Shown here: positions 53,495 through 62,922 of the stretch, piece by piece
How positions within the stretch are numbered: the first letter of the stretch is position 1
How the letters are laid out: every line of letters starts with the position of its first letter
Assembly: GCF_020991375.1 (NCBI RefSeq)
Contig: NZ_JAJLQZ010000002.1
Coordinates: forward strand, 124,001 to 188,000
Direction: 5' to 3'
DNA from: Glycomyces amatae
GTDB taxonomy: Bacteria > Actinomycetota > Actinomycetes > Mycobacteriales > Micromonosporaceae
DNA length: 64,000 nt
The notes under the pieces: model-generated
Database searches by the model: none
Told to the model about the DNA's origin: nothing
The model's input: the letters and a program-made list of their open reading frames with translations, nothing else
Made by a program: the position numbers and the translations under genes

Positions 53495-54151
53495 TCAGAT
53501 CTTCCGGAGGACGGCCACGACGCGGCCGAGGATCTCGGCCTCCGAGGCGTCGATCGGGTCGTACAGCGCGTTGGCCGGGAGGAGCCACGGCTTGCCGTTC
53601 TTGCGCTTCCAGGTCTTCACCGTCGCCTCGCCGTCGATCATGGCGGCCACGATCTCGCCGTTGAGCGCGTCGGGCTGCTGGCGCACGACGACCCAGTCGC
53701 CGTCGGTGATGGCCGCCTCGACCATCGAGTCGCCCTTGACGCGCAGGAGGAAGTGCACGCCCTCGCCCACGAACTCGGCCGGCAGGGGCATGACGTCGTA
53801 GTCGCGCTCCTCGGCCAGGATCGGCTGCCCCGCGGCGATCTCGCCGACCATCGGGACGTAGCGGGGGCGCGGGTGCTGGGAGCAGGTCTGGACGCCGCCG
53901 GGGGTGGACTGCCGGACCCCGACCGCGCGCGGCCGGCCGGCCAGGCGGTTGAGGTAGCCCTTCCGCTCCAGCTGCTTCATCTGGTAGGCGACGGAGGAGG
54001 CCGAGGCGAGGCCGACTTCGGCGCCGATCTCTCGGACGCTGGGGGGGTACCCCTTGTTGTTGATGAACTCCTCGATGTACTCGAGGACTTGCTGCTGCCG
54101 ACGCGTCAGCTTGCGCGTTTTCGGTCGGGCTGTGGTGGTCTCGCTGGCCAC
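53495..54151 (-). CDS. lexA: SOS-response repressor LexA
   Basis: LexA represses DNA-damage genes and cleaves itself when RecA is activated. The 218-residue protein has a winged-helix DNA-binding domain (TRRQQQVLEYIEEF ... VASA-type SASSVAYQMKQL), the scissile A107-G108 in GEIAAGQPI, and the Ser-Lys dyad S142 (GDSMVEAAI) and K179 (ATVKTWK). The GTG start follows AGGAG by 6 nt. It diverges from nrdR. Confidence 0.97.
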   Translation of the reverse strand: MASETTTARPKTRKLTRRQQQVLEYIEEFINNKGYPPSVREIGAEVGLASASSVAYQMKQLERKGYLNRLAGRPRAVGVRQSTPGGVQTCSQHPRPRYVPMVGEIAAGQPILAEERDYDVMPLPAEFVGEGVHFLLRVKGDSMVEAAITDGDWVVVRQQPDALNGEIVAAMIDGEATVKTWKRKNGKPWLLPANALYDPIDASEAEILGRVVAVLRKI

Positions 54152-54196
54152 AGGAGGCTCCTGTAAGACAAATGGGACGGTATGTCTGATTCCGAC

Positions 54197-54225
54197 AATG
54201 TAACTCAGCTGCGGTGTCAAGTCAA
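54197..54225 (-). promoter_or_regulatory. Likely lexA promoter
   Basis: TTGACT (54225-54220), a 17-nt spacer and TACATT (54202-54197) predict a start at about 54190, 39 nt before the lexA GTG. ACGAATGTTTG just upstream is only loosely like an SOS box. Confidence 0.55.
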
Positions 54226-54280
54226 ACATTCGTGCGATGTCGGCGTGTCGGCGCGCTGGTCGGAATGTGTTTTGCCCCAG

Positions 54281-54300
54281 GTTCACCCGCACGGGTGAAC
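54281..54300. promoter_or_regulatory. Perfect 9-2-9 palindrome between lexA and nrdR
   Basis: GTTCACCCG (54281-54289), CA, CGGGTGAAC (54292-54300). It lies about 55 nt upstream of the lexA -35 and 80 nt upstream of the nrdR -35. It looks like an operator for a dimeric regulator. The actinobacterial SOS consensus has the half-sites in the opposite order, so LexA is not the obvious ligand. Confidence 0.55.
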
Positions 54301-54379
54301 GAGAGGGCGGCGCCAGGTGGTTGACTGGAGCCCGTCCCCGAACTCCGACATGATCTTGGCACATCGTTCCGCGCTATCC

Positions 54380-54408
54380 TTGACACAAGATCTTGTGGTT
54401 TGTTGTAT
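54380..54408 (+). promoter_or_regulatory. nrdR-nrdJ promoter with an NrdR box
   Basis: TTGACA (54380-54385), a 17-nt spacer and TTGTAT (54403-54408) form a near-consensus promoter. ACACAAGATCTTGTGG (54383-54398) is a 15-of-16 palindrome, resembling known NrdR boxes, and covers the -35 end and the spacer. NrdR binding there would block polymerase. A second box about one to three turns away is not clear; GATCTTGG at 54352-54359 is a weak candidate. Confidence 0.7.
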
Positions 54409-54542
54409 CGTCTTTCACTAGGTGTTGGGGTTGCTGCCGCGACCGGTGCCGCGGAGGGCAGACTGTCCCCCGACCGGAGGGGGCGCCGCTCCCCGGGAAC
54501 GCCATTCCTCCAGGGACGACGGCCGAGAAGGAGACTCTAGCG

Positions 54543-55007
54543 ATGCGATGCCCTTACTGTCGCCATCCCGACAGCCGCGTCGTCGACTCGCGCGAGGCCG
54601 AGGACGGCAAGATCATCCGCCGCCGCCGCGTCTGCCAGCAGTGCGAGAAGCGCTTCACCACCGTCGAGGAGTCCGTCCTCGCCGTCGTGAAACGAAGCGG
54701 CGCAACGGAACCCTTCAATCGCGGCAAGGTCGCCTCGGGCGTCCTCAAGGCCTGCCAGGGCCGCCCGGTCGACGCCGACGACGTCGCCAAGCTGGCCCAG
54801 GCCGTCGAGGACGAGATCCGGTCCAAAGGCGTGGCCGAGGTCCCCAGCAACGAGGTCGGCCTGGCCATCCTGGGGCCCTTGCGCGAACTCGACGAGGTCG
54901 CCTACCTGCGCTTCGCCAGCGTCTACCGCGGCTTCGAGTCCCTCGAGGACTTCGAGGCCGCCATCGCGCAGCTCCGCGAGGAGCACGCCGCCCGGGGCAC
55001 CGGCTGA
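54543..55007 (+). CDS. nrdR: Ribonucleotide reductase repressor NrdR
   Basis: NrdR senses ATP/dATP and represses ribonucleotide reductase genes. The 154-residue protein has the N-terminal zinc ribbon (CPYC near residue 3 and CQQC near residue 31) and the ATP-cone domain ([16 protein letters not shown] onward). AAGGAG precedes the ATG. It lies 59 nt before nrdJ, the usual actinobacterial operon, and a matching box overlaps its promoter. Confidence 0.96.
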
Positions 55008-55066
55008 CACCACCAGAACATCTGTACGATTCCCGCAGTCCAGGCATGAGGAGACAGGGGCGAGAC

Positions 55067-58000
55067 ATGCCGAAGGCCACCAGAGCCGCCGAGAAGACCG
55101 TTACCAAGACCAGCGCGAACAAGGGCCTCAAGGTGGAGCGCGTCTTCACTACGCCCGGGACGCACCCGTACGACGAGGTCGCGTGGGAGTCCCGCGACGT
55201 CGTCATGACCAACTGGCGCGACGGCTCGATCAACTTCGAGCAGCGCGGCGTCGAGTTCCCCTCCTTCTGGAGCCAGAACGCCACGCAGATCGTGACCTCG
55301 AAGTACTTCCGCGGCGCCGTCGGCACCCCGCAGCGCGAGACCGGCCTCAAGCAGGTCATCGACCGCGTCGTGCAGGCGTACCACAACGCGGGGGAGAAGT
55401 ACGGCTACTTCGCCACCGCCGAGGACGCCCAGATCTTCGCCGACGAGCTCACCTGGCTCCTGCTCCACCAGTACTTCAGCTTCAACTCCCCGGTGTGGTT
55501 CAACGTGGGGACCGCCGCGCCCCAACAGGTTTCAGCGTGTCAGCCTTACGGCGCCCTGGTGAGCACCCCCGCCGGCCCGATCCCGATCGGCAAGCTCGTC
55601 GAGGACGAGATGATCGGGGCCAAGGTCTACGACGCCGAAGGCCTCACGCGGATCCTCGCGGTCAAGGCCAACGGCGTCAAGGACGTGCTGCGGCTCCACA
55701 CCAAGTCCGGCCACGCGCTCGACGTCACCGCCGACCACCTGGTCTGGAAGGCCACCGGCGAGGGCACGGGTCGTTTCGTCGAGGCGGGGACGCTGCGGGA
55801 GAACGACCAGCTGGAATGGCACCGCTGGTACACCGAGGGCGAAGAGGAGTTCGTCCCCGCCGAGGTGTACGAGGCCGCGCTCGCCGGCTGGCTCCAGGCG
55901 GACGGCTTCGTCGGCCAGTACGCCGAGGGCACGAACCGGTCGCTCACCATCGAGGCCGTCACGGTCACCGAAGCCGAGCACGCATGGGTGCTCGAGGCCG
56001 TCGAAGCGGTCTTCCCCGGCGCGCATTACAAGGTCCGTGACGCGAAGACCCAGGACGAGCAGCTGGACTGCAAACGCATCCGCCTCTACGGCGAACACCT
56101 GCGGCCGTTCATAGAGCGGTGGGGACTGCTCACCCGCGGCGTCGACATGACCGTGCCCGAGCGCCTCTACACCGCGCCGCTGCCGGTCGTGAAGGCGTAC
56201 CTGCGCAGCATCTTCCAGGCGGAGGGCTTCGTGTCGGCCCGCGAGCGCTCGACCATGGTCGGCTGCGCCATGATCAGCGAAGGCCTGATCCGGGGCATGC
56301 AGGAGCTGCTTCAGCGGTTCGCGATCTTCTCCCGCGTGACCCGCAAGTCCGAGCCGCGCGCGAACCGCCACGACACCTGGCACCTCGGCATCCAGAACGA
56401 CGGCGACCGCGGCGTGTTCGCCACCGAGATCGGCTTCGTCTGCGAGCGCAAGCACGAGAAGCTCGTCGCGAGCTTCGACAAGCCCGGCCGCCCCGCCAAC
56501 GGGATCAAGCGGCTCCAGATCGCCTGCATCGAGCACCTCGGTCCGCAAGAGGTCTACGACATCCAGACCGAGAGCGGCGAGTACCTGTCGCACAACCTGC
56601 GCGTCCACAACTGCTTCATCCTCAGCGTGGACGACACCATGGAGTCGATCCTGGACTGGTACAAGGAAGAGGGCATGATCTTCAAGGGCGGCTCCGGCGC
56701 CGGGATCAACCTCTCCAAGATCCGCGCCTCCGCCGAGCTCCTCTCCTCCGGCGGCAACGCCTCCGGCCCGATCAGCTTCATGCGCGGCGCCGACGCCTCG
56801 GCCGGCACCATCAAGTCCGGCGGCGCCACCCGCCGCGCCGCGAAGATGGTCGTCCTCGACGTCGACCACCCCGACATCGAGGCGTTCATCGACACCAAGG
56901 CCCGCGAGGAGGACAAGATCCGGGCCCTGCGCGACGCCGGGTTCGACGTCGACCTCGGCGGCGAGGACATGTTCTCGGTCCAGTACCAGAACGCCAACAA
57001 CTCGGTCCGCGTCTCCGACGTCTTCATGAAGGCGGTCGAGGCCGGCACCGACTACCCGCTCACCGCCCGCCTCGACGGGAGCGAGATCGGCCGCCGCGAC
57101 GCGGGCGGGGTCTTCCGCCGCATGGCGCAGGCCGCCTGGGAGTGCGCCGACCCGGGCATCCAGTACGACGACACGATCAACGACTGGCACACCAACCCGA
57201 ACACGGACCGCATCCACGCGTCCAACCCCTGCTCGGAGTACATGAGCCTCGACGACTCGTCCTGCAACCTGGCGAGCCTGAACCTCATGAAGTTCCTCGG
57301 CGACGACGGCTCGTTCGACGTCGACCGGTTCGTCAAGACGGTGGAGTTCGTCATCACCGCCATGGAGATCTCGATCTCCTTCGCGGACTTCCCGACCGAG
57401 AAGATCGGCGAGACCACCCGCGACTACCGCCAGCTCGGCATCGGGTACTCGAACCTGGGCGCGCTGCTCATGACCTCGGGCCACGCCTACGACTCCGCGG
57501 AGGGCCGCGCCCTCGCCGCCGCGATCACCGCGCTCATGACCGGCGTGTCCTACCGCCGCTCGGCCGAGATCGCCGGGGCCGTCGGCCCCTACGCCGGCTA
57601 CGAGGCCAACGCCGAGCCGCACCGGCGGGTCATGGCCAAGCACGCCGCCGCCGCGGACGCCGTCGCCGTCTTCGGCGACGTCGACGCCACGGTCCTGGAG
57701 GCCGCCAAGGCCGAGTGGGCCCGCGGCAACGAGCTCGGCGCCGTCGACGGCTGGCGCAACGCGCAGGCCTCGGTGCTGGCGCCGACCGGCACCATCTCCT
57801 TCATGATGGACTGCGACACCACGGGCATCGAGCCCGACCTCGCGCTCGTCAAGCACAAGAAGCTCGTCGGCGGCGGCTCCATGGAGATCGTCAACCAGTC
57901 GGTCCCGGCCGCGCTCCGCAACCTCGGCTACGGCGAGGACGAGCGCAAGGAGATCGTCGACTTCATCGCCGAGCACGGTCACGTCGTCGGCGCCCCGCAC

Positions 58001-58999
58001 CTGTCCGAGGACCACTACCCGGTGTTCGACTGCGCCATGGGCGAGCGGGCCATCTCCCCGATGGGCCACGTGCACATGATGGCCGCGGTGCAGCCGTTCC
58101 TGTCCGGGGCGATCTCCAAGACGGTCAACGTCCCCGAGTCGGCCACTGTGGAGGACATCGAGGAGGTCTACTTCCAGGGCTGGAAGCTCGGCCTCAAGGC
58201 CCTCGCGATCTACCGCGACAACTGCAAGGTCGGCCAGCCGCTCTCGGCGAAGAAGAAGGACGTCGAGCAGGCCGTCGAGGCGGCCGTGGAGCAGGCGATC
58301 GAGACCGTGGCGGCCCACGGCCCGGTCCGCCGGAAGCTCCCGAAGAAGCGCCCGAGCCAGACCATCTCGTTCACCGTGGGCGGCGCCGAGGGGTACATGA
58401 CCTCCTCATCCTACCCGGACGACGGCCTCGGCGAGGTCTTCCTCAAGATGTCGAAGCAGGGCTCGACCCTCGCGGGCGTCATGGACGCGCTGTCGGTGTC
58501 GATCTCGATCGCCCTCCAGTACGGGGTGCCGCTGGAGAAGTACGTCGAGAAGTTCACCAACATGCGCTTCGAGCCGGCGGGCATGACCGACGACCCGGAC
58601 ATCCGGATGGCCTCCTCGGTGGTGGACTACATCTTCCGGCGCCTGGCCCTGGACTACCTGCCGTACGAGGAGCGGGCGGCGATCGGGGTCCTGACGACCG
58701 CCGAGCGGACCGCCGAGCTCAACGGCGAGGACCCCGCCAAGCTCTCCCAGCCGGAGGTCGACCTGGAGGCGCTGCGCGGTTCGGCTCCCGTGGAGGACGC
58801 GTCCGAGGCGGAGGAGATCGCCGAGGCGGTCGCGGAGCGTGTCCAGGCCGAGTCGAAGCGGTCGCGTTCGGACCTGCTCAACTCGGCGCAGGCCCGCAGC
58901 GACGACGCGCCGCTGTGCATGAACTGCGGGACGAAGATGCGCCCGGCCGGCTCGTGCTACGCCTGCGAGGGCTGCGGCGCGACCAGCGGTTGCAGCTGA
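55067..58999 (+). CDS. nrdJ: B12-dependent class II ribonucleotide reductase with intein
   Basis: NrdJ reduces ribonucleotides to deoxyribonucleotides with adenosylcobalamin. The 1310-residue precursor includes a 358-residue intein; the mature enzyme would be about 952 residues, normal for the family. NPCSEYMSLDDSSCNLASLNL holds the active-site Cys and Glu region, PTGTISFMMDCDTTGIEP is the conserved phosphate loop, and CMNCGTKMRPAGS plus CYACEGCG is the C-terminal cysteine-rich tail. I chose the ATG at 55067 (MPKATRAAE), about 6 nt after GGGG. No cobalamin riboswitch is visible, and regulation is probably through NrdR. Confidence 0.95.
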   Translation: MPKATRAAEKTVTKTSANKGLKVERVFTTPGTHPYDEVAWESRDVVMTNWRDGSINFEQRGVEFPSFWSQNATQIVTSKYFRGAVGTPQRETGLKQVIDRVVQAYHNAGEKYGYFATAEDAQIFADELTWLLLHQYFSFNSPVWFNVGTAAPQQVSACQPYGALVSTPAGPIPIGKLVEDEMIGAKVYDAEGLTRILAVKANGVKDVLRLHTKSGHALDVTADHLVWKATGEGTGRFVEAGTLRENDQLEWHRWYTEGEEEFVPAEVYEAALAGWLQADGFVGQYAEGTNRSLTIEAVTVTEAEHAWVLEAVEAVFPGAHYKVRDAKTQDEQLDCKRIRLYGEHLRPFIERWGLLTRGVDMTVPERLYTAPLPVVKAYLRSIFQAEGFVSARERSTMVGCAMISEGLIRGMQELLQRFAIFSRVTRKSEPRANRHDTWHLGIQNDGDRGVFATEIGFVCERKHEKLVASFDKPGRPANGIKRLQIACIEHLGPQEVYDIQTESGEYLSHNLRVHNCFILSVDDTMESILDWYKEEGMIFKGGSGAGINLSKIRASAELLSSGGNASGPISFMRGADASAGTIKSGGATRRAAKMVVLDVDHPDIEAFIDTKAREEDKIRALRDAGFDVDLGGEDMFSVQYQNANNSVRVSDVFMKAVEAGTDYPLTARLDGSEIGRRDAGGVFRRMAQAAWECADPGIQYDDTINDWHTNPNTDRIHASNPCSEYMSLDDSSCNLASLNLMKFLGDDGSFDVDRFVKTVEFVITAMEISISFADFPTEKIGETTRDYRQLGIGYSNLGALLMTSGHAYDSAEGRALAAAITALMTGVSYRRSAEIAGAVGPYAGYEANAEPHRRVMAKHAAAADAVAVFGDVDATVLEAAKAEWARGNELGAVDGWRNAQASVLAPTGTISFMMDCDTTGIEPDLALVKHKKLVGGGSMEIVNQSVPAALRNLGYGEDERKEIVDFIAEHGHVVGAPHLSEDHYPVFDCAMGERAISPMGHVHMMAAVQPFLSGAISKTVNVPESATVEDIEEVYFQGWKLGLKALAIYRDNCKVGQPLSAKKKDVEQAVEAAVEQAIETVAAHGPVRRKLPKKRPSQTISFTVGGAEGYMTSSSYPDDGLGEVFLKMSKQGSTLAGVMDALSVSISIALQYGVPLEKYVEKFTNMRFEPAGMTDDPDIRMASSVVDYIFRRLALDYLPYEERAAIGVLTTAERTAELNGEDPAKLSQPEVDLEALRGSAPVEDASEAEEIAEAVAERVQAESKRSRSDLLNSAQARSDDAPLCMNCGTKMRPAGSCYACEGCGATSGCS
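55538..56611 (+). other. Intein within nrdJ (LAGLIDADG homing-endonuclease type)
   Basis: A 358-residue in-frame insertion, residues 158-515 of the precursor. It starts with Cys (CQPYGALV) and ends with VHN before the C-extein Cys516 (CFILSV). Removing it joins QVSA to CFILSVDD, the family's uninterrupted sequence. GHALDVTADHLV is the block B region with the His. LAGWLQADGFVG and LRSIFQAEGFVS are two LAGLIDADG-type motifs, each keeping one acidic residue. All splicing residues look present. Confidence 0.93.
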
Positions 59000-59011: not shown

Positions 59012-59098
<87 letters not shown>

Positions 59099-59119
59099 TG
59101 GCGGGGCCCCGGGTGGGTG

Positions 59120-60676
59120 TCAGGTCGCGGTGCAGGTGACGTCTGGTGTGGTGGCGGGGCCTGCGGCGATGAAGCCCCAGGCGTCGATGGTCTGGCCGGC
59201 GGCTATGGCGGCGTTCCAGCCGACGTCGGTGGCGGTGACGGTGGCGGCGGTGGTGGTGACGGTGGCGTTCCAGTGGCTGCTGATGGTCTGTCCGGCGGGC
59301 CAGGTCCAGGTGAGGGTCCAGCCGTTGAGGGCGGTGGTGCCGGCGGTGATGGCGAGGTTGCCCTGCCAGCCGCTCCCCCAGTCGCCGGTGACGGTGAGGT
59401 GGGCGGTGCAGTCGTCGGTGGCGGGGGGCGGGTCGTCGGGTCCGTCGGGGTCGGCGGGGCCGGTGCGGGGGTCGATGTCCTGGGTGAAGACGCGTTGGAT
59501 CTGGGCGCGGTCCTGGTCGATGCTGGTGTCGGGGATGAGGTCGGAGGCGTAGAGGGGTGCGGTGAGTTCGTCGAGGAGGGTCTGGGCGAGGCCGGATTCG
59601 TAGAGTTCGGCCTTGAGGTCGTGGAAGGTCTGCTCGTAGAGGGTGCGGAAGGCGGGTACGGCGAGGGCGCGTTCGACGCAGGGGCAGCCCCAGGTGGTGC
59701 GCTGGTCGGTGTCGATGTCGCCGGGGGTGGGGTCGGGGGGTGCGGGGAGGATGCCGAAGGAGAGGTTGTGGTCCCAGGGGACGATGGTCATCTTGCCGGT
59801 GTCGGGGCTCCAGCGGAAGAAGCCGTTCTGGCCGGGGCCGTCGATGTCGTCCCAGTTGAGGATGAGGTCTTGGACGGCGAGGTAGGTGGCGAAGGTCTGG
59901 GTGTCGATGCGGGTGTCGAGTTCGGCGGCGAACTGGGCGTCGGTGGCGTTGTTGAGCCAGTCGAGGAAGTCGAAGAGGGGTTGCCAGTTGTCCTCGTCGC
60001 CGCCGGTGGGTTCCCAGGCGCCGTCGTAGTCGTCGGGGTCGGTGCCGAGGTAGGCGAAGTCGAGGTCCCATTTCTTCTTGTAGAGGGTGCCGCCGTCTTT
60101 GGTGCCGTCGGGGGCGGGGAACTGCTCGTGGTCGAAGGTCTTGTCGAGTTCTTGGATGACGAGGCGGAGTTCGGGTGCGCCGCCGTTGACGCTGAAGGCG
60201 GCGGGGACGTGCCTGGTGGTGTTGAGTCCGGTGTGTTCGAGGAGGCGGAGGGCGAGGGCTTCGTTGAGGGAGGTGGGGGTGTAGTTGGTGCGGACGATGA
60301 AGCGTTTGTAGCCGTCGAGGTCTTGTTCGGTGTACTTGTCGAGGCGGATGAGCCAGGGCAGGGTGGTGGGGTCTGAATCGGGGTTGACGCCCCAGAGGCT
60401 GGAGTTGCCTTTGAGTTTGACGCCGGATCCGGGGAAGGCGCGGCCGTCGATGGTGACGTCGGCTTCGATCCATTCCTTGTCGCCGGTGTCGAGGTAGGTC
60501 TGGACCATGGCGGTGAAGTCGTCGGGGTCGATGGTGAATTGGAAGTCGTGGATCTGTGCGGCGTTCCAGACGGGGCTGCCTTGTGGTGGTTGGGCGGTGG
60601 CGGGGGTGGCGGTGATGCCGAGCGCGAGTGCCAGGGTGGTCGCGATGGCGGCGAGGGTGCGTTGGAGTGGTCGCAT
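59120..60676 (-). CDS. Secreted CotH-type kinase fused to CBM2
   Basis: A 518-residue exported protein. The signal peptide ends near PATAQPP (residue 29). The CotH domain (about 35-400) has VKLKGNSSLWG, KRFIVRTNYTPTSLNEALALRLL, then ILNWDDIDGPGQNGFFRW with catalytic Asp D276 and IVPWDHNLSFG with the metal Asp D302. CotH proteins are atypical protein kinases, the best known phosphorylating spore-coat proteins. A Pro/Asp linker leads to CBM2 (about 418-518: GDWGSGWQGNLAI, WTWPAGQTISSHW) for cellulose. It diverges from the DUF4956-VTC genes. The target protein or polymer is unknown. Confidence 0.85.
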   Translation of the reverse strand: MRPLQRTLAAIATTLALALGITATPATAQPPQGSPVWNAAQIHDFQFTIDPDDFTAMVQTYLDTGDKEWIEADVTIDGRAFPGSGVKLKGNSSLWGVNPDSDPTTLPWLIRLDKYTEQDLDGYKRFIVRTNYTPTSLNEALALRLLEHTGLNTTRHVPAAFSVNGGAPELRLVIQELDKTFDHEQFPAPDGTKDGGTLYKKKWDLDFAYLGTDPDDYDGAWEPTGGDEDNWQPLFDFLDWLNNATDAQFAAELDTRIDTQTFATYLAVQDLILNWDDIDGPGQNGFFRWSPDTGKMTIVPWDHNLSFGILPAPPDPTPGDIDTDQRTTWGCPCVERALAVPAFRTLYEQTFHDLKAELYESGLAQTLLDELTAPLYASDLIPDTSIDQDRAQIQRVFTQDIDPRTGPADPDGPDDPPPATDDCTAHLTVTGDWGSGWQGNLAITAGTTALNGWTLTWTWPAGQTISSHWNATVTTTAATVTATDVGWNAAIAAGQTIDAWGFIAAGPATTPDVTCTAT

Positions 60677-60744
60677 GGGTGGTGCCTCCTCGGTGGTGGC
60701 GGGGTTTCGTGCTTTTTGGATGGGGGGACGGTAGCAATCGGGTC

Positions 60745-60829
60745 TGTGGAAACCCTATGGAAACGCTTGCCGGTTCATAGGGTCCACATAGCCGTTTCAC
60801 TCGGTCTTCATAGGTTCGCGTTTTAGCAT
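60745..60829. promoter_or_regulatory. Divergent regulatory region, CotH / DUF4956
   Basis: TGTGGAAACCCTATG (60745-60759) and CATAGGGTCCACA (60776-60788) form an inverted repeat with a two-base insertion in one arm; it encloses GGAAACGCTTGCC, a LacI-type half-site pattern. A third TTCATAGG copy is at 60808-60815. TAGCAT (60824-60829) is a -10 box exactly 6 nt before the DUF4956 ATG, so that message is probably leaderless. Confidence 0.6.
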
Positions 60830-60835
60830 TGGTGT

Positions 60836-61426
60836 ATGAATGCGATCGGATGGACGGGGCTGGCGGCGGATCTGGCGCTGATCAGCGCCTTGGTCTTCGG
60901 GGTGTACTACCGCAGGCACCGCAGGTGGCACATGGTGGTCCCCTATATCGGCCTGAACGTCGGGGTGTTCGCGGTGGTGACGGCGCTGCTGGGCGCGGAG
61001 ATCGGCGTGGGCGTGGGCTTCGGCCTGTTCGGCGTGCTCTCGATCATCCGGTTGCGGTCGTCCGAGATCAGTCACGGGGACGTCTGCTACTACTTCTCGG
61101 CGCTCTCCATTGGACTGGTGTGCGCGGTGCCGCTCGCGTCGGCGTGGACCGGGCCGGCGCTGGGGCTGCTGGTGGTGGGTGTGATGGCGGTGATCGACCA
61201 GCCGTTCCTGCATCGGCGCCACCGCCAGGAGCGGGTGGTGCTGGAGCGGGTCTTCGCCACGCGCGAGGAGCTGGAGGCGCGGTTGACGGACCTGCTGGGC
61301 GCGGAGGCGATCCTGCGGGTCGAGACGGTGGAGACCGACCTGGTGCGCGATGCGCAGACGGTGGAGGTCGCCTACCGGGTCTCGGCGGCCCGGGCGCAGC
61401 AGCGCCGTCCGGTGCTGGCGCGGTAG
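60836..61426 (+). CDS. DUF4956 membrane protein
   Basis: A 196-residue protein. Four helices occupy about residues 5-130 (ending GLLVVGVMAVID), with the conserved FGLFGVLSIIRLRSSEISHGDVCYYF between them, typical of DUF4956. A cytoplasmic domain of about 65 residues follows. DUF4956 is commonly next to VTC polyphosphate polymerase and often CotH genes, as here, and may be a membrane partner. Its ATG has no ribosome-binding site and probably begins a leaderless message. Confidence 0.88.
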   Translation: MNAIGWTGLAADLALISALVFGVYYRRHRRWHMVVPYIGLNVGVFAVVTALLGAEIGVGVGFGLFGVLSIIRLRSSEISHGDVCYYFSALSIGLVCAVPLASAWTGPALGLLVVGVMAVIDQPFLHRRHRQERVVLERVFATREELEARLTDLLGAEAILRVETVETDLVRDAQTVEVAYRVSAARAQQRRPVLAR

Positions 61427-61435
61427 GGGCGGGGC

Positions 61436-62218
61436 ATGGAAGCGGCGTTGTCGCCGATCGGGCTGGCCGAGCTGCTGGCCGTGGCCGAGTTGCAGACGCG
61501 GGTGGACCGCAAGTACCTGGTCGAGTGCGCGGATCTGGGCCCGCTGCTGCACGATCCGCGCGGTGAGCTGGCGGTGCTGGAGATCGATCGGCGGCGCCGG
61601 TTCCAGTACGAGTCGGTGTACTTCGACGCGCCGGACCTGCCGAGTTATCTGGGTGCGGCGCGGTCGCGGCGGCGCGGGTTCAAGGTGCGCACGCGCACGT
61701 ACCTGGATTCGGGCCAGTGCATGCTGGAGATCAAGACGAAGGCGGGCGAGGCGACGGTCAAGCGCCGGTTCGACTACCCGGTGGCCGACCGGCGGCGGAT
61801 CACCGCGGACGGGTGCCTGTGGATCGAGGACTCGGGCGAGGTGCCGGTGTCGGCGTTCGCGCTGGAGCCGGTGCTGGTGACGCGGTATGTGCGGGTGACG
61901 CTGCTGCACCGGCCCAGCGGGGCGCGGATGACGTGCGACACGGGGTTGCGGTTCGAGGACTTCGCGGGCCGTTCGGGGGTCTTGGGTCCGGAGCTGGCGG
62001 TGGTGGAGGTGAAGAGTCCGGGCCGGACGGTGCCGTTGGACCGTCGCCTGTGGAAGGCGGGGTACCGGCCGTGCCCGATCAGCAAGTACGGGACGGGGAT
62101 GGCGTTCCTGCGTCCGGAGCTGCCGGCGAACAAGTGGAACCGGACGCTGCGGCGCCATTTCGGGTGGCGGCCCGGGCGTGCGGCCGCGGCGCCGGTTCAG
62201 TCCGCTTTGAGGACGTAG
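61436..62218 (+). CDS. VTC-domain polyphosphate polymerase
   Basis: A 260-residue protein with the tunnel-fold VTC domain, which makes inorganic polyphosphate from ATP in yeast Vtc4. VDRKYLVE, SVYFDAPDL, then RRRGFKVRTRTY (Arg pair), MLEIKTKAGEATVKRRFDY (Lys/Glu), VTRYVRVTL, LAVVEVKSPGR (metal Glu) and ISKYGTGMAF (Lys) follow the family order. It lies 9 nt after DUF4956. The last 22 nt overlap the 3' end of the convergent response-regulator gene. Confidence 0.9.
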   Translation: MEAALSPIGLAELLAVAELQTRVDRKYLVECADLGPLLHDPRGELAVLEIDRRRRFQYESVYFDAPDLPSYLGAARSRRRGFKVRTRTYLDSGQCMLEIKTKAGEATVKRRFDYPVADRRRITADGCLWIEDSGEVPVSAFALEPVLVTRYVRVTLLHRPSGARMTCDTGLRFEDFAGRSGVLGPELAVVEVKSPGRTVPLDRRLWKAGYRPCPISKYGTGMAFLRPELPANKWNRTLRRHFGWRPGRAAAAPVQSALRT

Positions 62219-62922
62219 CCGACGCCGCGGACGGTGTGGATCATCGGGGCGTCGCCGTGGCCGATCTTGCGGCGCAGGTAGGAGATGTAGAGCTCGACGA
62301 TGCTGGCGCGGCCGCCGAAGTCGTAGCTCCAGACCTGGTGGAGGATCTGGCGTTTGCTCAGGACGCGGCGGGGGTTGCGCATGAGGTAGCGCAGGAGGCG
62401 GAACTCGGTGTCGGTGAGGGTGACGCTGACGCCGCTGCGGTTGACCTCGCGGGTCTCCTCGTCGAGTTCGAGGTCGCCGACGACGAGTTTGGCGGGAGCG
62501 CTCCCGGTGGGTGCGGTGCGGCGGCGCAGGCGTTTGAGGCGGAGCATGACCTCTTCGAGGTTGAAGGGTTTGGCGACGTAGTCGTCGGCGCCGACGGCGA
62601 GGCAGCCGATGCGGCGGCGCTCGCCGTCCTCTGCGGCGAGGACGAGGACGGGGGTCTCGGGGAACTCCGAGTGCATGCGGGCGAGCAGGACGAGGCCGTC
62701 GACGTCGGGCATGGCCAGTTCGGTGACCACGAGGTGGGGCCGCTGGGCGCGCAGGTGGGCCAGGGCGGTGGCGCCGTCGTCGGCGGGTATGGCGTGCCAG
62801 CCTTCGAGGCGGAACGCCAGGGTGAGCAGTCCGCGGACGTTGGGGTCCGGGTCGGCTGTGAGGATCCTAGTGAGGGTGGAGTCAGAACCGCTCAGCCGTG
62901 GTGTTTTCAGGTTGAACTCCAC
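62197..62922 (-). CDS. OmpR-type regulator with Glu at the phosphorylation site
   Basis: A 241-residue regulator: a receiver domain (about 18-130) and a winged helix (about 145-241: LTDTEFRLLRYLMRN ... IVELYISYLRRKIG). The receiver's phospho-acceptor position in HLVVTELAMPD is Glu68, which mimics phospho-Asp. The second residue of the acidic pair is Pro25, and the usual Thr/Ser is Ala (VLAAED). Lys is kept (AKPFN). It may be constitutively active. The GTG start lies 6 nt after a TAGAAT box, so a leaderless message is likely. No kinase is nearby. Confidence 0.9.
   Translation of the reverse strand: MEFNLKTPRLSGSDSTLTRILTADPDPNVRGLLTLAFRLEGWHAIPADDGATALAHLRAQRPHLVVTELAMPDVDGLVLLARMHSEFPETPVLVLAAEDGERRRIGCLAVGADDYVAKPFNLEEVMLRLKRLRRRTAPTGSAPAKLVVGDLELDEETREVNRSGVSVTLTDTEFRLLRYLMRNPRRVLSKRQILHQVWSYDFGGRASIVELYISYLRRKIGHGDAPMIHTVRGVGYVLKAD

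Follow-up and report, generated by a model that had tools for sequence, protein, structure and literature searches.

What do an exported CotH-type kinase, a DUF4956 membrane protein, a VTC-type polyphosphate polymerase and an OmpR-family regulator do side by side? This question is raised by a cluster at positions 59120-62922 of a 64,000-nucleotide window of Glycomyces amatae DNA (the window being the whole stretch that was analysed). The first-pass annotation had placed four genes there, and we found all four at the same coordinates and on the same strands, with Pfam families that agree and with matches that exceed the curated cut-offs for every protein. The genes form two divergent transcripts. 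CotH (518 amino acids (aa), 59120..60676, minus strand) is read leftward, while DUF4956 (196 aa, 60836..61426, plus strand) and VTC (260 aa, 61436..62218, plus strand) are read rightward and are separated by 9 bp. The regulator gene (62197..62922, minus strand) is convergent with VTC and overlaps it by 22 bp. Our data suggest that the locus is a co-regulated envelope module, in which a membrane polyphosphate synthase would serve an exported kinase or adhesin and both transcripts would stand under one regulator. We give this reading a probability of about 55%.

Co-occurrence across genomes had been named by the first-pass annotation as the check on this grouping, and the neighbourhood does recur above chance. 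Two surveys of the phylum were made by profile, a first draw of 149 genomes and a larger set of 396; the two are nested and not independent. In the first draw DUF4956 was found in 16 genomes and VTC in the identical 16, and all 13 genomes with CotH lay inside these 16. In the larger set DUF4956 was found in 44 genomes and VTC in 42, and each of the 42 VTC genomes has DUF4956 (hypergeometric P 1e-54). A same-strand VTC lies at most 380 bp away, measured between profile matches, for 46 of the 48 DUF4956 matches. Of 31 CotH genomes, 26 have VTC (P 6e-25) and 27 have DUF4956, and 27 of the 42 CotH matches fall within 6 kb of DUF4956; 16 of the 42 VTC genomes have no CotH. Across phyla we examined 14 control genomes. 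DUF4956 and VTC were found in the same three of them (Bacteroides ihuae, C. glutamicum and M. acetivorans), and CotH in B. subtilis, C. glutamicum and M. acetivorans. The four genes are almost certainly a conserved linked unit.

A profile scan of genome contigs returned at least 559 confirmed relatives, the best 80 of which were taken as named loci. Family models for these loci were built and iterated on the same loci, and the CotH of L064 was found through Pfam. Since several of the loci come from the same genera, counts from the 80 overstate the number of independent events. In 76 of the 80, no more than 600 bp separate VTC from DUF4956. Over 99 loci the gene order is DUF4956-VTC in 85 of 96 pairs and VTC-DUF4956 in 11, always on the same strand. 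Within 4 kb of DUF4956 we found CotH in 18 and the Cthe_2159 family in 21 of the 80 loci; 40 loci have a regulator within 4.5 kb and 38 have a kinase (weak matches are included in these counts). The third gene can be Cthe_2159 where CotH is missing (PF14262, E 4.3e-79 to 2.4e-93 in L015-L017), and both genes are present in L082 and L101. CotH alternates, or co-occurs, with this adhesin-type partner. According to PMC6712302, proteins of the Cthe_2159 family have a beta-helix structure and bind to cellulose and to acidic sugars.

Among the matches listed, the closest named relatives are Glycomyces sp. NRRL B-16210 and G. paridis (DUF4956 identity 80 and 82%), and both carry the identical four-gene set in the identical order. 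The genome of the window itself has three VTC and three DUF4956 genes, which are paired, and two CotH genes. The second copy (L006, G000:C23:177480-180222) reads VTC-DUF4956-CotH, with a histidine kinase and a regulator convergent on it. The third (L008, G000:C12:116319-117574) is DUF4956-VTC without CotH and adjoins a regulator, a kinase-like gene and a frame that by eye resembles a family-2 glycosyltransferase.

We then asked what each protein is likely to do, beginning with VTC. The window protein matches Pfam VTC (PF09359) at 82.9 bits against a curated cut-off of 23. A profile of 50 sequences, in which the window protein is aligned with 49 of its 57 non-redundant relatives, finds yeast Vtc4 in the Protein Data Bank (PDB) at E 7.6e-7 and only VTC-complex proteins up to E 1; a single-sequence phmmer search of the PDB gave one chance-like match, so that Vtc4 is reached by the 50-sequence profile alone. 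The predicted model of the stand-alone tunnel domain (mean confidence score, pLDDT, 91.6) superposes on Vtc4 (3g3r_A) with Z 17.0 and a root-mean-square deviation of 3.1 over 210 residues. The top seven rows of the fold ranking are chains of the VTC complex (Z 16.2-17.0), with two further Vtc4 entries at 14.4 and 13.4, and other tunnel enzymes reach at most 14.3. In the profile alignment, outside which the C-terminal tunnel residues lie, the basic residues R22, K26, R85, R87, K100, K109, R153 and R164 line up with tunnel residues of Vtc4. The counterparts are R196, K200, R264, R266, K281, K294, R361 and R373, a numbering that fits the alignment as printed. Across the 50 VTC proteins seven of these eight positions never vary, and K26 is kept in at least 90%. 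Profile, fold and tunnel residues thus agree with the earlier assignment of VTC as a polyphosphate-polymerase-type protein, and by sequence and model it probably synthesizes polyphosphate.

The DUF4956 protein (Pfam 165.2 bits) is predicted to consist of five long helices followed by an alpha/beta domain (model pLDDT 89.3), and the latter would lie in the cytosol. Against solved folds, VIA-align gave a best Z of 6.5 with no clear leader, and a profile of eight DUF4956 proteins had no significant match in the PDB. A lead came from a second form of the family. A profile of this form (8 sequences) matches MgtC (24 sequences) with a probability of 96 and E 4e-9, against 0.2 for a reversed control, and the window's form matches the second form with a probability of 97.7 in profile-profile comparison. 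The DUF4956 paralogue on contig C23 of the same genome also matches MgtC, at E 5.5e-6 and 27.2 bits, under the cut-off of 31.4. This suggests that DUF4956 is a five-helix protein related to MgtC indirectly, by way of the second form. MgtC is not mentioned in the available parts of the literature that we found on DUF4956.

CotH matches its family (PF08757) at 104.3 bits against a cut-off of 23.8, the kinase domain covering residues 101-374 (59555..60376, minus strand), and a profile of 22 CotH proteins finds the CotH structure 5jd9 at E 5.9e-26. This alignment holds 22 of 31 sequences; L012, L014, L018, L019, L020, L021, L023, L064 and L094 were left out. The two aspartates singled out by the first-pass annotation are conserved in it, D276 in all 22 proteins and D302 in 21 of them. 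By position D276 fits D228 of Bacillus CotH, in which the second aspartate is D251. According to PMC7821199, the D228Q form of CotH yields no phosphorylated coat species. A signal peptide was recognised by eye in the window protein, and a crude rule finds export signals in 27 of 31 CotH and 24 of 24 Cthe_2159 proteins, in 21 of 99 VTC proteins and in 5 of 57 regulators. The Pfam match, the acidic pair and the export signal are all as expected for the exported kinase-type protein proposed earlier.

A link to cellulose had been proposed as well, from the C-terminal CBM2 domain of CotH (PF00553, 66.2 bits against a cut-off of 24; residues 423-513, 59138..59410, minus strand). Among the matches listed, CBM2 on CotH was found in the window and its two closest loci (L025 and L026) alone, and therefore the part of the link that depends on CBM2 is local. 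What remains of the proposal is that Cthe_2159, of a carbohydrate-binding type, is a frequent partner (21 of the 80 named loci).

Binding sites of OmpR/PhoB-type regulators are known to occur as tandem repeats spaced by 11 bp. Between the divergent transcripts we found two such arrays. One faces DUF4956-VTC and has four 11-bp repeats (TTCATAGGGTC, CACATAGCCGT, TTCACTCGGTC and TTCATAGGTTC; 60774..60817, plus strand), recognised by its score against shuffles and its recurrence in named loci; the other, found by pattern scan, faces CotH and has two 11-bp repeats (CATAG-N6-CACAG on the minus strand, 60744..60765). The four-repeat score of the window was reached by 0 of 300 shuffles, and some of the nine regions inspected were unremarkable or borderline (57, 4 and 2 of 300 shuffles reached the score in L089, L032 and L009). 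A core of CA[C/T]AG-N6-CA[C/T]AG was chosen after viewing the window and eight other loci, six of them among the 80. We then counted this core in an upstream zone of each named locus, from 250 bp before to 30 after the DUF4956 start, which makes 22,400 bp over 80 loci. There were 26 matches in the zone, in 21 of the 80 loci, against 8 in the remaining 1.19 Mb. When all further spacings between 7 and 19 were counted, they gave a single match in the zone altogether (period 13). When the six loci inspected beforehand were excluded, 17 matches in 16 of 74 loci remained against 8 elsewhere, a 107-fold enrichment.

In the window one copy of the core reads toward CotH and one toward DUF4956-VTC, and 0 of 100 shuffles contain two. 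Minus-strand copies stand ahead of a leftward CotH in L025, L026, L032, L049 and L068, and the sixth minus-strand copy, in L071, does not adjoin a leftward CotH; the divergent loci L009 and L011 have no exact match. CotH or Cthe_2159 is present in 20 of the 21 operator loci and in 17 of the 59 others (Fisher P 7e-8, relatedness uncorrected). Together this makes it very probable that the CotH and DUF4956-VTC transcripts are co-regulated.

The regulator is a natural candidate for these sites. It has a receiver domain (Response_reg, 74.9 bits) and a winged-helix output domain (Trans_reg_C, 88.3 bits) of the OmpR/PhoB type. In the window, L025 and L026 its phospho-acceptor aspartate is replaced by glutamate (TEL for LDL), with further changes in the acidic pair and at the conserved threonine; the remaining 47 of the 50 scored regulators, a few of them not adjacent to a module, have the aspartate. 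We found no histidine kinase within these three loci; the rest of the genome was not searched for a cognate kinase. In a FastTree tree with a midpoint root, the eight operator loci with a scored regulator (window included) form one 12-member clade with L006, L009, L011 and L077 (support 0.81). This clade is separate from the regulators of Nocardiopsis, of Nonomuraea and of the third-copy type. The first-pass annotation had called the regulator an orphan. This holds in that a kinase is not found at the locus, and the orphan state goes with the loss of the phosphorylation site, yet the match between clade and operator makes it look like a true partner of the module. In the window and its two closest relatives it probably works without a kinase. 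The simplest reading is that a two-component output became kinase-independent and kept its sites, to which we predict that it binds.

How might these parts work together? In the reading that we prefer, VTC would act in the cytosol as a Vtc4-type tunnel enzyme that makes polyphosphate from adenosine triphosphate (ATP). DUF4956, with about five membrane helices and a soluble domain, would anchor VTC at the membrane, and it may pass or control the polyphosphate chain, by analogy with the yeast complex. Translocation across the membrane is a tentative proposal, and we regard both export and phosphate donation as speculative. The product would serve a surface component, which may be exported CotH (here with CBM2) or, in related loci, the beta-helix protein Cthe_2159, or both, and CotH may in turn act on surface proteins or glycans. 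The OmpR-type regulator would act on the 11-bp tandem sites that face both transcripts and so switch the two jointly.

A number of observations tell against this reading. As to the gene set, 5 of the 31 CotH genomes have no detectable VTC (G157, with a partial match, G298, G304, G326 and G374); G374 is a one-contig genome, and G304 has a Cthe_2159-like piece in place of VTC after DUF4956, on a 6.2-kb contig. DUF4956 without VTC is seen in G304 and, as a weak match, in G274. In a genome of the family to which the window's host belongs, VTC is followed by CotH with no detectable DUF4956 (L129, G204:C1:2975741-2978163). VTC was not seen near DUF4956 in 4 of the 80 named loci: L027 ends at a contig end, and in L028, L029 and L097 CotH stands beside DUF4956 and VTC was not found in the stretch examined. 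In 43 of the 80 named loci (33 of the 63 that have long flanks) both CotH and Cthe_2159 are missing within 4 kb, so an exported partner is not always nearby. As to the proteins, VTC is without the SPX and membrane parts of Vtc4, the VTC domain alone being detected in its 260 aa, and there is no convincing solved fold for DUF4956 (Foldseek gave none at E of 0.001 or below). The window's form of DUF4956 compared directly with MgtC gives a profile-profile probability of 11, and Pfam MgtC (PF02308) is found in 0 of 46 proteins of this form, the window protein included, which makes the kinship indirect.

The operator has limits of the same kind. The exact pattern is missing from 59 of the 80 named loci, and a general scan for three 11-bp repeats gives the window a z of 1.7, with high scores for different cores in other regulator clades. 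Genome-wide there is no excess: CAYAG-N6-CAYAG has 17 matches in the window's own genome against 22 for a backward control, and five of the 17 lie at C1:69.9-72.0 kb and resemble DnaA boxes. CATAG-N6-CATAG occurs twice in the genome, once at the window locus, against 4 for the control. Since genome-wide counts are not above control, the evidence for the operator is positional.

Of the other explanations, an accessory module for an exopolysaccharide fares best, and it can overlap with the preferred reading. The genes would then adjust or alter a surface polysaccharide, in the way suggested for Pel loci, with VTC and CotH acting on that pathway. Whitfield 2020 (PMC7112168) describes CotH, a poly-phosphate polymerase and DUF4956 next to pelDEADAFG in streptococci, clostridia and bifidobacteria, accompanied by either DUF4832 or a diguanylate cyclase/phosphodiesterase, and proposes that Pel is regulated by phosphorylation. 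In our data GGDEF matches occur in 3 of the 16 first-draw loci (L010, L018 and L019), glycosyltransferases lie near L018, L020 and L022 (among the neighbours tested), and CBM2 and Cthe_2159 are carbohydrate-binding families. However, the window locus has as its nearest genes that of a class II ribonucleotide reductase and members of the MST and ABM families, and GGDEF, the sole polysaccharide-linked family sought in the 80 named loci, is present in one (L103). We consider this explanation possible, on a tentative footing.

More doubtful is a reading in which VTC would be no polymerase but a different phosphohydrolase of the tunnel fold, or would sense polyphosphate, while DUF4956 would regulate phosphate or ATP homeostasis in the manner of MgtC. 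The tunnel fold is common to triphosphatases and related enzymes, and MgtC activates phosphate transport through PhoR (PMC6658541). On the other side stand the seven VTC-complex chains that lead the fold ranking above all other tunnel enzymes and the profile that finds VTC-complex proteins alone up to E 1.

A bolder, special form of the preferred reading seems unlikely to us. Here polyphosphate exported by DUF4956 would be the phosphoryl donor for exported CotH, replacing ATP, which is scarce outside the cell. The skew between genomes is in its favour (26 of 31 with CotH have VTC, while 16 of 42 with VTC lack CotH), as are the export signals of CotH (27 of 31 by the crude rule) and the facing operators, and B. 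subtilis, in which CotH belongs to sporulation, is the sole control genome that has CotH without VTC and DUF4956. Yet CotH uses ATP, according to PMC7821199, and we found no report that it uses polyphosphate. VTC and DUF4956 occur without the kinase in Cthe_2159 loci, VTC is missing from five CotH genomes, and in three named loci CotH and DUF4956 have no VTC nearby. We likewise give a low probability to the full picture of a two-protein bacterial counterpart of the yeast VTC complex, in which an MgtC-like DUF4956 would export polyphosphate as the donor for a CotH that marks surface proteins or glycans. If true, it would explain how an extracytoplasmic kinase is supplied with phosphate without ATP. 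A chance neighbourhood of unrelated genes is contradicted by both genome surveys (n=149 and n=396), by the named loci and by the positional operator, and we put its probability close to nil.

Some features of the loci and of the window are recorded here in their own right. In L010 (5920-12640) CotH-DUF4956-VTC is flanked by a GGDEF protein and by a glycerophosphodiesterase with its own CBM2. In the Nocardioides locus L056 (9443-11188) VTC is followed by a protein with weak TAT-signal and calcineurin-like phosphoesterase matches. The Acidimicrobiia loci L028 (4142-6822) and L097 are DUF4956-CotH pairs without VTC, and in L028 a gene for a Bax1-I family membrane protein precedes DUF4956. The L101 contig is labelled Sporosarcina beigongshangi; it has 65% GC and pieces 77-91% identical to Arthrobacter sp. 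HY1533 (L082), and it is probably mislabelled or contaminated. In the window, the class II, B12-dependent ribonucleotide reductase at 54422-58999 has an intein-like insert with a LAGLIDADG domain, and upstream of it are LexA (53495-54364, Pfam) and an NrdR-like frame (54393-55007, by eye). Just downstream of CotH, at 59013-59110, there are about 100 near-pure G bases with runs of 32 and 26 G. No other G or C run in the window reaches 12 bases, and the stretch may be an artefact of assembly or sequencing.

VTC is present in 42 and DUF4956 in 44 of the 396 genomes sampled, roughly one tenth, and the literature that we found holds no tested role for the bacterial pair. A literature search, with most subscription papers outside its reach, returned nothing on the operator, the regulator, the kinship with MgtC or the alternation with Cthe_2159. 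New here are the match of VTC to the fold and tunnel of Vtc4, the MgtC link, the Cthe_2159 alternation, the tandem operator and the Asp-less regulator within an operator-linked clade. Taken together, the linkage, the lead to MgtC, the CotH-Cthe_2159 alternation and the conserved operator turn what were separate unknowns into one system that can be tested, with a concrete regulator-operator pair for switching the module.

How does this system compare with those already known? The window VTC shares the tunnel fold (Z 17.0) and the aligned tunnel residues of the yeast VTC complex (3g3r, 7ytj and 8i6v). Its chain has neither SPX nor membrane helices, unlike the yeast complex, and the membrane part would be a separate protein. 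In yeast the membrane helices form a channel-like structure that is thought to pass polyphosphate (PMC10657179). The window CotH resembles the Bacillus spore-coat kinase (5jd9) by profile (E 5.9e-26) and by its conserved acidic pair, but it is exported, bears CBM2 and stands beside VTC and DUF4956. With the MgtC family (PF02308) a glycine-rich helix motif appears to be shared through the second DUF4956 form in profile comparison, although one paralogue is under the Pfam cut-off and the window DUF4956 has no Pfam MgtC match.

Two published loci come closer. In NELoc-2 of C. perfringens VTC and CotH genes stand together as in the window (PMC2879425 and PMC11677781), and the 222- and 226-aa proteins beside VTC, annotated there as tubulin/FtsZ GTPases, may be DUF4956 (PMC2879425). 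NELoc-2 differs in its flanking genes and in that its published table has no OmpR-type regulator. The Pel accessory group has the same three families, contiguous, as the window locus. The first-pass annotation had taken what the families do together as not established; the grouping itself is not new, as the CotH/polyphosphate-polymerase/DUF4956 set is already in print as Pel accessory genes (PMC7112168). Our data support a conserved, apparently co-regulated unit. The genes closest to the window locus include none of the Pel genes; pel was not sought elsewhere in the genome. In contrast to the Pel accessory group, the window locus has an OmpR-type regulator, a tandem operator and a divergent orientation, and its relatives have Cthe_2159 as an alternate partner.

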